A stretch of 54,763 bases of DNA from a virus. The notes under the pieces were generated by a model that saw only the letters and a list, made by a program, of their open reading frames with translations, did not search any database and was not told the DNA's origin. A program made the translations under genes and the position numbers. Position 1 is the first letter of the stretch, and every line of letters begins with the position of its first letter. Positions 19,876 to 30,940 of the stretch are shown here, in pieces. The stretch spans positions 1-54,763 of the IMG/VR virus record IMGVR_UViG_3300017917_002109; one strand, given 5' to 3'.

Positions 19876-20793
19876 TTAGTCCTCTGCTAGTTTTGCGAAA
19901 TAAGAAATAGAATCGTCGTTATCGTCGAAGTCTACTTCTCTTGCTGGGGCAGGAGTAGGTGCAACTGCCTTAGCTGTTACTTTAGATGTACCTGTATCAA
20001 AAGGCGCGTCGTCAAGATCAACGTTTTCTGCCTTCTTCATAGGTGCACCGCCACCGAGTACCATATCAAGTTTGCGCTTTAGCTCGTCGTAAGACTTGAA
20101 GTGCTTAGGATCGAGGAAAGCGGTAAGGGAATGTTGCTGGTTCCAAATGTTCTCGATAATAGAATCATCCTCGGATACGGGACTTGGTGAATCAAACTCC
20201 GATTTGTCGTAATTGCGATATCCTTCTACGTTACGAATTTTTAGCTTGAAGTTTGCACCTTCCCAGAAGTCGAACGGATTAAGTGGCTTTTCGTCTTCGA
20301 ACTGTGGTTCAGCAACATCTTTAATCTTATCAAAAATCTTCTTGCCGAATTTAAACAAGAATACCTTGCCCTCATTTTCAGGGTGCTTGGAATCTTGAAC
20401 AACAAGAATATTAGTGTAGTATGTTAGTTTACGTTTCTGTTTGCGAGCAACTTCTTTGTTTGCTTCAGAGCCAGAATTCCATAGCTCTGTATTCATTTCA
20501 GAAACAGGATCGGGCTTGCCGATAGTTGTAAGTGAATTCTCGATATACCACTTACCAGTAGGTCCTTGGAAACCGTGATTCCAAATACGAACCCATGGAA
20601 GCTCCTCACCTTTAGGAGGAGGAAGGAATCGAATAACAGCATAGCCGTTACCTGCCTTGTCTACCTCAGGTGACCAAAAGCGATCGTCGCTTCGAGATTC
20701 AGATTGGGGATTTGCGATCTTTTCTACTTCCTTCATCAAGGAATCAAACCCACCGCGGGATTTACGTAGATCAGCTAGAGATGTGAATGCCAT
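19876..20793 (-). CDS. 32: Single-stranded DNA-binding protein gp32 (305 aa)
   Basis: T4 gp32-type SSB. The N-terminal LAST-like basic motif (LADLRKSRGGFDSL), the OB core (YAVIRFLPPPKGEELPWVRI, then WYIENSLTTIG and KLTYYTNILVVQDSKHPENE) and the acidic C-terminal tail (FDDNDDSISYFAKLAED), which would bind gp59 and other replication proteins, are all present. Length equals T4 (301 aa). The T4 His-Cys3 zinc site is not seen: the corresponding segment (IGKPDPVSEMNTELW) has no cysteine. Its leader carries three 10-11-base repeats (20809-20840). Confidence 0.95.
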   Translation of the reverse strand: MAFTSLADLRKSRGGFDSLMKEVEKIANPQSESRSDDRFWSPEVDKAGNGYAVIRFLPPPKGEELPWVRIWNHGFQGPTGKWYIENSLTTIGKPDPVSEMNTELWNSGSEANKEVARKQKRKLTYYTNILVVQDSKHPENEGKVFLFKFGKKIFDKIKDVAEPQFEDEKPLNPFDFWEGANFKLKIRNVEGYRNYDKSEFDSPSPVSEDDSIIENIWNQQHSLTAFLDPKHFKSYDELKRKLDMVLGGGAPMKKAENVDLDDAPFDTGTSKVTAKAVAPTPAPAREVDFDDNDDSISYFAKLAED

Positions 20794-21059: not shown

Positions 21060-21281
21060 TTACACGTCTTCTCTCTTTTTAGGAGAGATTTTTAGGTAAG
21101 GCCAGGTTGATACACGTTTATTTAATTCGGCTTGGCTATGTGCAAGTTTAATTAAATACCTTTGTGTTTCTTTTAGCGACTCTTGAGTCTGCAAAATTGA
21201 ATCCTGCATCATCGAAATTTCACTCTCGATTCTGCGAATCATCTGATTGTGTTCCTCTAACTCGTCTTCTAAATTCTGCAT
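21060..21281 (-). CDS. Short coiled-coil protein (73 aa)
   Basis: Residues 1-45 (LEDELEEHNQMIRRIESEIS and on) have a heptad pattern of a coiled coil; the tail is basic. With the start at 21281, preceded by GGAAAG, it overlaps the gp59 gene by 62 bases. Starts at 21242 (after GAGGAA) or 21212 would reduce the overlap. Unknown function; it sits between the helicase loader and gp32. Confidence 0.55.
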   Translation of the reverse strand: MQNLEDELEEHNQMIRRIESEISMMQDSILQTQESLKETQRYLIKLAHSQAELNKRVSTWPYLKISPKKREDV

Positions 21282-21855
21282 CGTACTTTCCCAACTCCAC
21301 AGTTAAAAATGGGTTATACTTTTTGATTAGCCTAGAAATATCAGGCCAAACAACTGGATCAGTAATCTGTTTGTCAAATACTTTTACAAACTTAACTATC
21401 TTTTCCAGAATAACCAACGTCTCAATAGATACCGTTTTTCTAAGGTATGCTTTTATTATATATGGATGTTGGCCTTTTGCAACCTCGAACGCATCTTGCA
21501 TAGATTGTCCTTGTTGCTCAAGTTCAAAACAAAGATTATCTAAATCCTTGTTAAAAATATAGAATAGACTTTCGTTACGCTTTTTCCATTCCTGATAGCG
21601 TTTACCTGCATCACTATCAAAGACGCCTCCCCATCGGTCACCTGAGACAAAGTTCGCAACTAAAAAGTTCGCCACTTCCTCATCCGAATATGTCTTAGCA
21701 ATTTTTTTGATACTATAAAGATCTCGTCGTTTTAAAAAAGCCGCGCGACTAGCTTTGACACGGCCTTGCTGCTCTACAACATCATAGTTATCAGATGTAA
21801 AGTGTAGGCGTAATGCAAGATACATTTTATAAACTGAGAATTCATCCATTATCAT
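21220..21855 (-). CDS. 59: Helicase loader gp59 (211 aa)
   Basis: T4 gp59-like loader of the replicative helicase at forks. The N terminus (FSVYKMYLALRLHFTSDNYD) and the segment FLVANFVSGDRWGGVF (residues about 66-81) are characteristic. Length matches T4 (217 aa). It starts within the gp33 stop codon (ATGA overlap), giving the T4 order 33-59-32. Confidence 0.93.
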   Translation of the reverse strand: MIMDEFSVYKMYLALRLHFTSDNYDVVEQQGRVKASRAAFLKRRDLYSIKKIAKTYSDEEVANFLVANFVSGDRWGGVFDSDAGKRYQEWKKRNESLFYIFNKDLDNLCFELEQQGQSMQDAFEVAKGQHPYIIKAYLRKTVSIETLVILEKIVKFVKVFDKQITDPVVWPDISRLIKKYNPFLTVELGKYDAEFRRRVRGTQSDDSQNRE

Positions 21856-22121
21856 AACGGCAGTTTGCCCCTAGGCTTCATATAATTTTGTTCTTCGGCC
21901 TCGACCTGAATTTTATCACGCAATGATTGATTAATCAGATTTGCGACCGCTTCTACATCAATGTCAATGTCATTGCAATACTGTATAATTGCGTCCATAT
22001 AACCTATTTTATCAGAAATTACTCTATTCTCAATATAGAGTGAGAACTCGTTTGGCGATCTAAATCGTTTCGTGATAACCAAACCATCGGTTAGCTCTTC
22101 AATTTTATAAGTTTCGGTCAT
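21852..22121 (-). CDS. 33: Late transcription co-activator gp33 (89 aa)
   Basis: gp33-type RNA polymerase-binding protein, which in T4 links sliding-clamp-activated late transcription to the polymerase. Matching pattern: FSLYIENRVISDKIGYMDAI, QYCNDIDIDVEAVANLINQS. Its place before gp59 is the T4 one. It would work with a gp55-like sigma (not in this window) at the TATAAATA promoters found here. Confidence 0.88.
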   Translation of the reverse strand: MTETYKIEELTDGLVITKRFRSPNEFSLYIENRVISDKIGYMDAIIQYCNDIDIDVEAVANLINQSLRDKIQVEAEEQNYMKPRGKLPL

Positions 22122-23904: not shown

Positions 23905-23930
23905 TGTGTTCCTATGTGTTTGTGTAAAAT

Positions 23931-24098
23931 GGTGGGTATTCTGTTACGAGGAACCCACCGAACCCTAGGCTGCTTTAGATCAAGCTGCCAATGCAAATCT
24001 TTCGTCGTTTGCGTTTACGTTATTTTCTTCTTTTTACATCGTCGCTGATGTGCTGTCCACTCTGTTACTCTTTGCCCTGTCGAAACCATGACTGGCCC
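23931..24098 (-). ncRNA. ssrA: Permuted tmRNA, coding piece with tag ANDERFALAA
   Basis: The 5' end GGGCCAG (24098-24092) is the 5' strand of the tmRNA acceptor stem and is followed by the tmRNA D-arm-like TCATGGTTTCGACAGG. The tag frame at 24012-23980 reads GCA AAC GAC GAA AGA TTT GCA TTG GCA GCT TGA, i.e. ANDERFALAA-stop, ending in the LAA degradation signal. The 3' end is placed at the hairpin GGTGGGT / ACCCACC (23931-23959), which is an estimate. This piece lies downstream of the acceptor piece, so the gene is circularly permuted and the mature RNA should be two-piece. G3-U70 in the acceptor stem fits alanine charging. Confidence 0.93.
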
Positions 24099-24170
24099 AT
24101 TAGAAAGCACACTAGCACCAGCGACCGGATCAATGGTGGGGAATCGAACCCTCGTTGATAATGTGCTTAC
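24099..24170 (-). other. Intervening segment between the two tmRNA pieces
   Basis: These 72 bases join the acceptor piece's CCA to the coding piece's 5' end. AAGCACA just after the CCA and TGTGCTT just before GGGCCAG are exactly complementary, so they would extend the acceptor stem and close the precursor. The segment also holds a T-arm-like GAGGGTTCGATTCCCC with only three good stem pairs. It should be cut out at both ends by tRNA-type processing. Confidence 0.75.
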
Positions 24171-24224
24171 TGGTGGACCAGGCGGGAGTCGAACCCGCGT
24201 CCAGAACACTTTTCTCTTTGCTTC
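24171..24224 (-). ncRNA. ssrA: Permuted tmRNA, acceptor piece ending in encoded CCA
   Basis: Minus strand: GGACGCGGGTTCGACTCCCG CCTGGTCCACCA. This is the tmRNA T-arm (GCGGG/CCCGC around TTCGACT) and 3' acceptor strand CTGGTCC, discriminator A and encoded CCA ending at 24171. CTGGTCC pairs with GGGCCAG of the coding piece over seven positions, including the G-U that marks alanine tmRNA. The 5' boundary (about 24224) is approximate. TGTTCT before the T-arm can pair with AG(T)AACA of the coding piece as a P2-like helix. Confidence 0.92.
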
Positions 24225-24236
24225 ATACAGCAATAA

Positions 24237-24632
24237 TTAAAACGGCGTGAACTGAGTATAAGTTCTGCCTCGATAACTAAAAGTTATGACCTCACCTAAT
24301 TGGTACTGCTCGTATGTAGTATTACATACTGTTCGCTGTTCATAACGATTTTCATACTGCTGGTTTGCAATACCGGAACCTACAATGGAACCAATAACCG
24401 CACCTGCAACTCTAGTGTCACCGTGACCAATTTGGCTACCTACAATACCACCTAGCAACCCACCCATGGTAGATGCGCCTTGGCTTCTAGGTACTTGCAC
24501 CATATGGTTTGAACAAACCTGCATTGGTCGATATCCCATTTTAGGTTCGACCGAAATTACCTGCGGTTGCTCTTGTGCTACTGCATAACCAGAAATAAGA
24601 GTAGCGATCAAAACAAACGATTTAAAATTCAT
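24237..24632 (-). CDS. Exported glycine-zipper (17-kDa antigen-like) protein (131 aa)
   Basis: Signal peptide MNFKSFVLIATLISGYAVAQ, then a loop with two pairs of cysteines (C38 and C103 visible), and a glycine-zipper region at about residues 55-92 (TMGGLLGGIVGSQIGHGD, VAGAVIGSIVGSGIANQQYE) like the Rickettsia 17-kDa surface antigen / YMGG family of Proteobacteria. Such proteins sit in the outer membrane. The gene looks host-derived. It is first after a consensus promoter (24655-24683) and is followed 13 bases later by the tmRNA acceptor piece. Confidence 0.85.
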   Translation of the reverse strand: MNFKSFVLIATLISGYAVAQEQPQVISVEPKMGYRPMQVCSNHMVQVPRSQGASTMGGLLGGIVGSQIGHGDTRVAGAVIGSIVGSGIANQQYENRYEQRTVCNTTYEQYQLGEVITFSYRGRTYTQFTPF

Positions 24633-24654: not shown

Positions 24655-24683
24655 ATTATATATGAAAACAATCAAGCAGTCAA
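24655..24683 (-). promoter_or_regulatory. Sigma-70 promoter TTGACT-17-TATAAT
   Basis: -35 TTGACT (24683-24678), 17-nt spacer, -10 TATAAT (24660-24655), 23 bases before the glycine-zipper start codon. The most likely promoter for that gene and the tmRNA. The -35 lies in the end of the nuclease gene. Confidence 0.85.
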
Positions 24684-25346
24684 CAACTTTTTATCCATTT
24701 CATATTGATCTCGATATCGAAGAAGCTCTGGAACCCAAGTATTTCGTTTTTCAACAAATAATAAGGGATCGTCATCTTCAACTGCCATAATAATAACCAA
24801 TTTATCTACAGGCGTACCAGTTAATTCCTCGTACATAATCGCATATGCTGCGCATTGCATAAAATATGTAGGAATATCTTCTCTGGATTTCTTACGACTA
24901 GATGTCTTATAATCAATAACAGATAATCTACCATCAAACTCTGCGATACAATCTACTGTACCTGCTAACCGCAAATGGTGAGAATATAGTCTCTTTTCTT
25001 GAAGATGCACATTATTAATTCTATGTAGTAAAGGCAAAATACTAGTAAATAATGGCTTATCAAAAATAGTTAGTTTATCAATAACGTTATTATTATTTAG
25101 ATAATCCTCACACTGTAAATGCAACTTAGAACCGCGCTTTGTTGCTCGTTGTGAGATTCTATTTGCTTCTTCCTCGCCTACTCTTTTTCTCCATTCAATT
25201 AATGCCTGCTTATTAAATGAAGATAGAATAGTTGTAACTGAAGGATACTTTTTACCTGTCGGGGTAGAATAAACCCTTGTCCCATCCGCTGCTGTTATTT
25301 GCTCGATAGCAGGGATATCTTTCACCTTAACATGATTATAGATCAT
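24672..25346 (-). CDS. PD-(D/E)XK (Cas4/RecB-like) exonuclease (224 aa)
   Basis: PD-(D/E)XK nuclease. Motifs: KYPSVTTILS near the start, RGSKLHLQCEDYL (helix with His), LAGTVDCIAEFDGRLSVIDYKT (catalytic D in GTVDCIAEF and D-Y-K in VIDYKTSSRK) and the QCAAYAIMYEE helix. In T4-like phages such enzymes act in DNA recombination or host DNA breakdown. The start at 25346 (MIYNHVKVKD) is chosen because an upstream ATG at 25403 would overlap the preceding gene by 53 bases. Confidence 0.85.
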   Translation of the reverse strand: MIYNHVKVKDIPAIEQITAADGTRVYSTPTGKKYPSVTTILSSFNKQALIEWRKRVGEEEANRISQRATKRGSKLHLQCEDYLNNNNVIDKLTIFDKPLFTSILPLLHRINNVHLQEKRLYSHHLRLAGTVDCIAEFDGRLSVIDYKTSSRKKSREDIPTYFMQCAAYAIMYEELTGTPVDKLVIIMAVEDDDPLLFVEKRNTWVPELLRYRDQYEMDKKLLTA

Positions 25347-25350
25347 AATT

Positions 25351-25659
25351 TTATTCCGTCTCTGGCACCGTCGCCAAAATTGCATTAATCTCTCTACATA
25401 CACCCATTACTTTAAAATGCAATGTATCCCATTCTGTATACCATTCAATTGAATGCTCTGGATTTTGCATACTATCTTTTTTAGCAATACAATAATGATT
25501 TGCAACTACATTCTCGGGAACAGCATAGGCAGATTCTGTGGGCTTCTCTGGATTTAATAGATCCTGCAATTCTATGCACTTACTAACTAGTAATTCTTTA
25601 TCTAAGTCTAGAACAATAGCATCTAATTGTTCTGAAGTAATATCTTCAACCTTAATCAT
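25351..25659 (-). CDS. Phage protein of unknown function (102 aa)
   Basis: A 102-aa acidic, helical soluble protein. I do not recognise a family. It stands between the GH19 endolysin (4-base gap) and the nuclease (4-base gap), clearly part of the same operon. Confidence 0.7.
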   Translation of the reverse strand: MIKVEDITSEQLDAIVLDLDKELLVSKCIELQDLLNPEKPTESAYAVPENVVANHYCIAKKDSMQNPEHSIEWYTEWDTLHFKVMGVCREINAILATVPETE

Positions 25660-30175: not shown

Positions 30176-30940
30176 TTATTTCCTTTCAATATCTTCTTCA
30201 ATGCAATTTTCGCCGTATTGGATTTCGACGATTTTCAATGGCTTATCAGTTTCATTACAAAGCTGATGCCATTCAGTTTTCCTTAGATGGAGACTTTCAA
30301 ATTTATTGAACACTCCATAAAGGTCAACATCGGTGCTAGAGTTTAGTGTGTAAACTGTAGCTGTTCCTTCAGCAATGAACCAATGCTCAGCTCGCTCTTG
30401 GTGTCGTTGCATACTAAGGCACTTACCAGGATCAACAGTAAGTTCCTTAACTTTAACTTCTTTGCCTTGTTCATGTAGAACACGGTATACGCCCCATGGA
30501 CGTAGAGTTTTAGGCGCTTTCCAATCTTCGAGAATCCAAGAACTCGAATTCATCTTATCCTCGCCACCCACGCCAAATTCAAAATCAAGATTTAGATCCT
30601 GAACATCCATTTCAGGAATATTGGTAGATGTTCTATCTCCGCCGTTAGCAAAAATGATTTTTTCGTTAGGATACAATGTTCTGACAAAATTAATAGCATC
30701 ACGGGCACTACCATCGTCATCATTAAAAGTAATACAACGATCAACAATACCCATAGTTTCTACAACTGCTCGACGGTTCGCCAAGTCCATAAAGGGGCGG
30801 CCTTTTTTACGAGTCAGCCATTCATCAGAATTAATACCTACGACAAGAATATCGCCTAGCTTTTTTGCAGCTTTAAGATATGAAATATGGCCGGCGTGGA
30901 TAGGATCGAACCCGCCAGTAACTAAAACAACTTTTCTCAT
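30176..30940 (-). CDS. Nucleotidyltransferase (RfaE/TagD-like) fused to a mannose-6-P isomerase-type cupin (254 aa)
   Basis: Residues about 1-110 are a cytidylyltransferase domain with the HxGH signature in GGFDPIHAGHISYLKAAKKL. From about 140 on comes a cupin of the type-II phosphomannose isomerase kind (RPWGVYRVLHE, VDPGKCLSMQRHQERAEHWF, then GTATVY). Together these suggest synthesis or modification of a sugar nucleotide, perhaps for a surface glycan. The start overlaps the upstream stop by one base. Fusions of this kind are known in T4-like phages as far as I recall. Confidence 0.88.
   Translation of the reverse strand: MRKVVLVTGGFDPIHAGHISYLKAAKKLGDILVVGINSDEWLTRKKGRPFMDLANRRAVVETMGIVDRCITFNDDDGSARDAINFVRTLYPNEKIIFANGGDRTSTNIPEMDVQDLNLDFEFGVGGEDKMNSSSWILEDWKAPKTLRPWGVYRVLHEQGKEVKVKELTVDPGKCLSMQRHQERAEHWFIAEGTATVYTLNSSTDVDLYGVFNKFESLHLRKTEWHQLCNETDKPLKIVEIQYGENCIEEDIERK

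Follow-up and report, generated by a model that had tools for sequence, protein, structure and literature searches.

Background

Two-piece tmRNAs encoded by phages are already known as such. Buchholz et al. (2022, PMC9004378) reported 402 screened phage genomes with a tmRNA and 53 two-piece tmRNAs, and described the two-piece tmRNA of phage Melnitz; the 2025 tmRNA database holds 79 phage sequences (PMC11915505). The part of the gene between the CCA and the 5′ end, called the spacer below, is absent from the mature two-piece molecule (PMC11915505). Among published spacer contents, a single tRNA gene and a single repetitive element come nearest (PMC11915505); in the openly accessible literature we met no account of a protein gene placed inside a tmRNA spacer.

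Melnitz (PMC9004378) resembles the phage analysed here in being T4-like, in having a permuted tmRNA within the order PhoH, PDDEXK nuclease, tmRNA, gp33, gp59 and gp32, and in the presence of a closing helix in the spacer. It differs in that its tmRNA was placed with alphaproteobacterial ones and carries the tag ANDNYVPVDYALAA, and its 142-nt spacer has an unannotated open frame of 41 codons, whereas the spacer found here has no reading frame. The betaproteobacterial permuted tmRNA (RF01850) shares with our gene the gene order, the tRNA-like domain, the tag ANDERFALAA and a stem near the 3′ end. However, host spacers are 3–42 nt long (30 genes), compared to 72 nt with a T-arm-like insert here, and our gene lacks the final stem of the model. 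The GCA-2688965 permuted tmRNA (PMC11915505) also has tRNA-like material in the spacer, but there it is an intact tRNA-Ala gene in the intervening sequence, while here it is only a T-arm-like hairpin that is not recognised as a tRNA. Stenotrophomonas, Streptomyces and other phage tmRNAs in GenBank match the T-arm and acceptor region of our gene, although the match is limited to short stretches.

A permuted tmRNA gene in a T4-like phage fragment

The window, which is the whole stretch of 54,763 nucleotides from IMG/VR record IMGVR_UViG_3300017917_002109, is a 54.8-kb fragment of a T4-like phage, in agreement with the original prediction. It encodes baseplate proteins, a tail lysozyme, gp32, gp59, gp33, PhoH, DNA ligase and others, and PHROG annotation assigned T4-type homologues of gp53, gp48, gp5, gp25, gp6, gp32, gp59 and gp33. 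The closest cultured relatives by gp6, at ~38% identity, were the Pelagibacter phages HTVC008M and Mosig and the Methylophilales phage Melnitz. The tmRNA gene has the following parts.

23925..24265, minus strand: whole permuted tmRNA gene, delimited by the beta_tmRNA model (RF01850, 117.7 bits); RF04321 scores 121.2 bits over 24232-23980; also called by ARAGORN
24171..24232, minus strand: acceptor piece, the 3′ part of the tRNA-like domain (sequence, ARAGORN domain table, Rfam alignment)
23925..24098, minus strand: coding piece, with the 5′ acceptor strand GGGCCAG, UGGUUUCGACAGGGC, the tag frame and the 3′ hairpin (sequence, Rfam, ARAGORN)
23980..24012, minus strand: tag reading frame ANDERFALAA and stop UGA (ARAGORN tag and resume consensus)
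23931..23959, minus strand: 3′ hairpin GGUGGGU...ACCCACC near the gene end (inverted repeat; matches the stem near the end of the beta model)

The gene order is permuted, with the CCA at 24173-24171 upstream of G1 at 24098 on the minus strand. The acceptor piece, whose 5′ end is uncertain, comprises the T-arm GCGGG-UUCGACU-CCCGC and the acceptor strand CUGGUCC-A-CCA. By inspection, the coding piece starts with GGGCCAG from 24098, followed by TCATGGTTTCGACAGG. The seven-pair acceptor stem that had been proposed between GGGCCAG and CTGGTCC, including the alanine-type G3-U70, forms at every position (G1-C72, G2-C71, G3-U70, C4-G69, C5-G68, A6-U67 and G7-C66). The resume consensus is cgtaaacgcaaacgacga. 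The tag frame reads GCA AAC GAC GAA AGA TTT GCA TTG GCA GCT TGA from 24012 to 23980, and its hydrophobic end and stop were both present according to ARAGORN. All elements named in the original prediction were found on this strand, and the permuted tmRNA is complete. The search with permuted Rfam models that it had suggested gave 121.2 bits for RF04321, tmRNA_permuted (gathering threshold 47, E 3e-23), and 117.7 bits for RF01850, beta_tmRNA (gathering threshold 84, E 3e-35), both well over threshold, and RF01850 was the clan winner at this locus among the clade-specific permuted models. ARAGORN independently called a permuted tmRNA with the same proteolysis-type tag at the same position. The locus had been placed correctly, but the interval given for it, 23931-24224, was slightly too narrow compared to that of the beta model.

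Based on these model and sequence matches, the window gene is classified as a permuted tmRNA of the betaproteobacterial type. The comparison with betaproteobacterial tmRNAs, also suggested earlier, showed that ANDERFALAA is common to many betaproteobacterial records, and this distribution suggests the host, although it is no proof of it. Free folding of 24060-24220 (161 nt around the junction) gave the acceptor stem, the T-arm and the closing helix together. The minimum free energy structure of the whole precursor is a different fold (-95.5 kcal/mol, compared to -90.1 kcal/mol with the tmRNA helices enforced), to which we gave little weight because such folding cannot represent pseudoknots and ignores those of tmRNA.

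Length, closing helix and turnover of the spacer

Three features define the spacer of the window gene.

24099..24170, minus strand: intervening sequence (spacer) of 72 nt between the encoded CCA and G1; processing would remove it from the mature RNA
24159..24168, minus strand: 5′ arm of the closing helix, AAGCACAUUA, pairing with 24105-24114; seen in the free fold of 24060-24220
24105..24114, minus strand: 3′ arm of the closing helix, in a register shared with 180 phage spacers; seen in the free fold

Spacers were compared in 203 phage and 30 host genes, the latter a narrow sample since host genes were chosen by tag. Phage spacers had a median length of 79 nt, with 166 of them at least 50 nt and the longest 405 nt, whereas none of the host spacers exceeded 42 nt. 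Three unusually long spacers initially counted as host (85, 127 and 236 nt) had wrong tag calls and were dropped.

In the register that matches base 1 to base -5 and continues inwards, the first eight positions of 180 distinct phage spacers formed 91% canonical pairs, compared to 60% with 3′ arms shuffled (at most 63% in 500 shuffles) and 40–60% in other registers. At least four pair types occurred at most positions, which is covariation across the 180 spacers. In the window, 11 of 12 positions pair in this register, with one U-U mismatch. This pattern of pairing indicates that the closing helix, and not the spacer sequence, is under selection in phages.

The sequences enclosed by the helix turn over rapidly relative to the tmRNA around them, as 15 of 22 phage gene pairs with cores at least 95% identical had dissimilar spacers. 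In loci L140 and L147 the cores are 99.6% identical and the spacers unrelated, the closing helix differing too. Conversely, a single insert recurs with different tags in L108, L152 and L183, and another does so in L254 and L380. Copies of inserts were also found outside the spacer, elsewhere in phage contigs: several loci have the L259 insert close to their tmRNA, and L181 and L187 have relatives of the L210 and L217 inserts upstream of theirs. By sequence comparison, the phage tmRNA spacer is thus best described as a hypervariable slot, in which the closing helix alone is conserved and the content is swapped, including protein genes. As a group, non-coding inserts were no more stable than shuffles (mean z -0.3), and Rfam recognised no known RNA family in any spacer of the 19 related loci.

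A 52-nt element with a T-loop lies inside the spacer of L259; in L109, L165, L172, L182, L193, L220, L238 and L265 it was observed beyond the spacer, often immediately upstream of the tmRNA.

Protein reading frames in spacers

A protein reading frame was present in the spacer of 42 of the 203 phage genes. Among the 88 spacers at least 75 nt long, 25 start a frame at an ATG within their first 20 nt and keep it open up to their end, compared to 5.2 expected from dinucleotide shuffles. The longest spacer (405 nt, L533, 1371-1775) holds a complete iscU of 128 codons (NifU_N, 3e-55) between the acceptor and coding pieces, and the spacer of L302 encodes a CxxCxxCC-domain protein with a homologue in L378; these two cases came from an added pattern search for long spacers. 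The spacers of L096 and L324 encode an Oxidored-like domain. Most coding spacers have a purine-rich ribosome-binding site within the 5′ arm of the closing helix, and their stop codon falls inside the 3′ arm or next to it.

Over eight homologous pairs of spacer frames, pooled pN/pS was 0.24 and substitutions at the three codon positions numbered 47, 24 and 89, with the excess at the third. By these substitution patterns, the comparable frames are under purifying selection. The core tree shows ~34 changes between presence and absence of a frame, with 14 or more of them on well-supported branches.

The spacer of L135 has a ferredoxin-like CxC...CGxC frame, which was not recognised by Pfam. Further nested protein frames were seen in L178, L167, L300, L262, L504, L512, L525 and L531, and frames for tiny hydrophobic peptides of about 21-29 residues (e.g. 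MNDDLTPLAIGVVVVLVVFAIVLL) in the spacers of L200, L218, L221, L226, L293, L343, L374, L536 and L541.

The 41-codon frame of Melnitz has a GGAG site (region MZ577097 45984-46436, corresponding to L543:15985-16437), and its location within the annotated SsrA feature has left it without an annotation. It is a weaker case for coding, since no homologue was found outside Melnitz isolates. The frame runs on into the tmRNA, so that processing would strip its stop codon.

The 72-nt insert of the window

Within the spacer of the window lies one further feature, which the original prediction did not mention.

24139..24151, minus strand: second, T-arm-like hairpin GGG-UUCGAUU-CCC (17-nt direct repeat of the true T-arm at 88% identity)

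There is an even chance that this insert is no more than the remains of a tRNA or a second copy of the T-arm of the gene, filling the loop of the closing helix and having no further function; this explanation applies to the insert alone, and the tmRNA could be functional all the same. The 17-nt repeat speaks for it, as do the failure of both ARAGORN and Rfam to find a tRNA there, a stability no higher than that of shuffles (z +0.9) and the lack of relatives in exact searches of IMG/VR. However, the T-loop motif recurs in 9 of 202 phage spacers, compared to about 0.05 expected by a simple base-count estimate, and in several of them it stands beside the closing helix as in tRNA, directly so in L337 and L237. 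Taken together, a decayed fragment or duplicate and a functional small RNA seem about equally likely for the window insert. The T-arm-bearing spacers were also considered as tRNAs, a reading we rejected as ARAGORN called none of them.

We also propose, tentatively and with somewhat more doubt than belief, that the spacer serves as a dedicated cargo slot with fast exchange. Whole protein genes and small RNAs would travel in it and be freed when the tmRNA is processed, and most coding inserts would have their ribosome-binding site in the closing helix. On this view the 72-nt spacer of the window would be a cargo as well, namely a small RNA that has a tRNA T-loop. If this is true, placing genes between the halves of a stable RNA and coupling their expression to tRNA-type processing would give phages a new packing mode, and nesting in tmRNA would perhaps also time small phage genes. 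Nesting would explain small genes that escape annotation; the Melnitz frame sits within an SsrA annotation. The many natural spacer replacements in near-identical tmRNA backgrounds make the effect of the spacer on maturation directly testable.

Phage lineage and tags

In a tree of spacer-free cores, a branch with support 93 separated the 30 betaproteobacterial genes from all phage genes. Because of this separation, the window gene is placed in a settled phage lineage, as opposed to a recent capture from the hosts sampled. Its closest tmRNA core is only about 80–85% identical. A permuted tmRNA occupies this place in 24 of 33 IMG/VR relatives, namely those with at least 5 kb upstream of gp32. 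With these relatives and the 53 published two-piece cases (PMC9004378), the earlier view that a permuted tmRNA is unusual in a T4-like phage holds at best in part.

It is improbable that the gene is an inactive relic, i.e. a host-derived tmRNA gene decaying in the phage. Its identity to any host gene examined is low, about 50%, and the extra T-arm copy in the spacer could resemble decay, but the acceptor stem, T-arm, resume signal, tag and stop are all complete and the model scores high, the tmRNA is retained at the same place across many diverged phages, and phage genes have their own side of the core tree.

Among phage tags, 174 of 189 end in LAA, so that the proteolysis signal is kept. This bears on the idea of a decoy that interferes with host trans-translation, for which there is a precedent in phage DS6A, whose tag-less tmRNA was reported to inhibit host tmRNA (PMC11915505). 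With the tag frame of the window intact and the LAA end so widespread among phages, we regard a decoy as quite improbable.

Unusual tag ends were observed in L088 (ANDNSYRMVA), L271 (ANDEQFLMVA), L512 (ANDSQFLMVA), L204 (ANDTQFALVA), L174 (ANEESFLMAA) and L169 (ANDESYRIAA), and they may alter protease recognition. The tag frame called in the phage permuted tmRNAs of L101, L106 and L117 has no initial alanine (DNSYMSYANSYALAA and similar).

Genomic neighbourhood

The genes around the tmRNA are arranged as follows.

24237..24632, minus strand: glycine-zipper protein gene (Pfam PF05433, E 2.7e-7), ending 4 nt before the tmRNA core
24655..24683, minus strand: sigma-70-like promoter candidate TTGACT-17-TATAAT (consensus scan, 11/12 match), the nearest strong candidate upstream
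24672..25403, minus strand: PD-(D/E)XK nuclease, upstream neighbour as in Melnitz (phrog_298, 5e-76; PF12705)
21852..22121, minus strand: gp33-like late-transcription coactivator, downstream neighbour as in Melnitz (PF16805, 9.6e-21)
21220..21855, minus strand: gp59-like gene (phrog_269, 1e-62)
19876..20793, minus strand: gp32-like single-strand DNA-binding protein (phrog_224, 2e-120)

Given its position, the glycine-zipper gene is possibly co-transcribed with the tmRNA. The promoter candidate stands before this gene and is a consensus match alone, which is no proof of function. The T4 late promoter motif TATAAATA occurred in the window at chance frequency, with none before the tmRNA.

tmRNA genes are common integration sites (PMC11915505), but an attachment site or integration scar in place of a working gene is extremely unlikely here, since the gene is entire and not a fragment, the gene set is T4-like with no integrase among the genes annotated on the contig (PHROG, Pfam), and none is annotated next to the Melnitz tmRNA.

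A gene for SmpB was not found in the window contig or in 25 related records, although it was detected in this way in 10 of 14 control genomes. The tmRNA would then depend on host factors, and the description of it as a phage-controlled RNA in the original prediction was too strong.

Proposed function of the two-piece tmRNA

We believe it highly probable that the window encodes a functional two-piece tmRNA of the betaproteobacterial type, with its spacer in a hypervariable slot. Its transcription, processing, charging and tagging, as well as any role of its insert, are what we infer in keeping with what is established for tmRNAs. Transcription would yield a single precursor, probably starting at the TTGACT/TATAAT promoter candidate and taking in the glycine-zipper gene. 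Host tRNA-processing enzymes would cut after the CCA (24171) and before G1 (24098), removing the 72-nt spacer, which would be held in the closing helix stacked on the acceptor stem. The closing helix probably holds both cut sites together whatever the insert, and such a role would account for a conserved helix around a changing insert. The two pieces would remain paired, and AlaRS would charge the acceptor piece with alanine by virtue of G3-U70. The charged tmRNA, with host SmpB and EF-Tu, would rescue stalled ribosomes, and the rescued products, tagged with ANDERFALAA, would pass to host proteases, of the ClpXP type according to the original prediction. Our guess is that a phage degrading host DNA and mRNA would gain from secured ribosome rescue.

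Elsewhere in the window, the gene at 30176-30940 resembles members of the heptose 7-phosphate kinase / heptose 1-phosphate adenylyltransferase family (phrog_7878, 8e-28).
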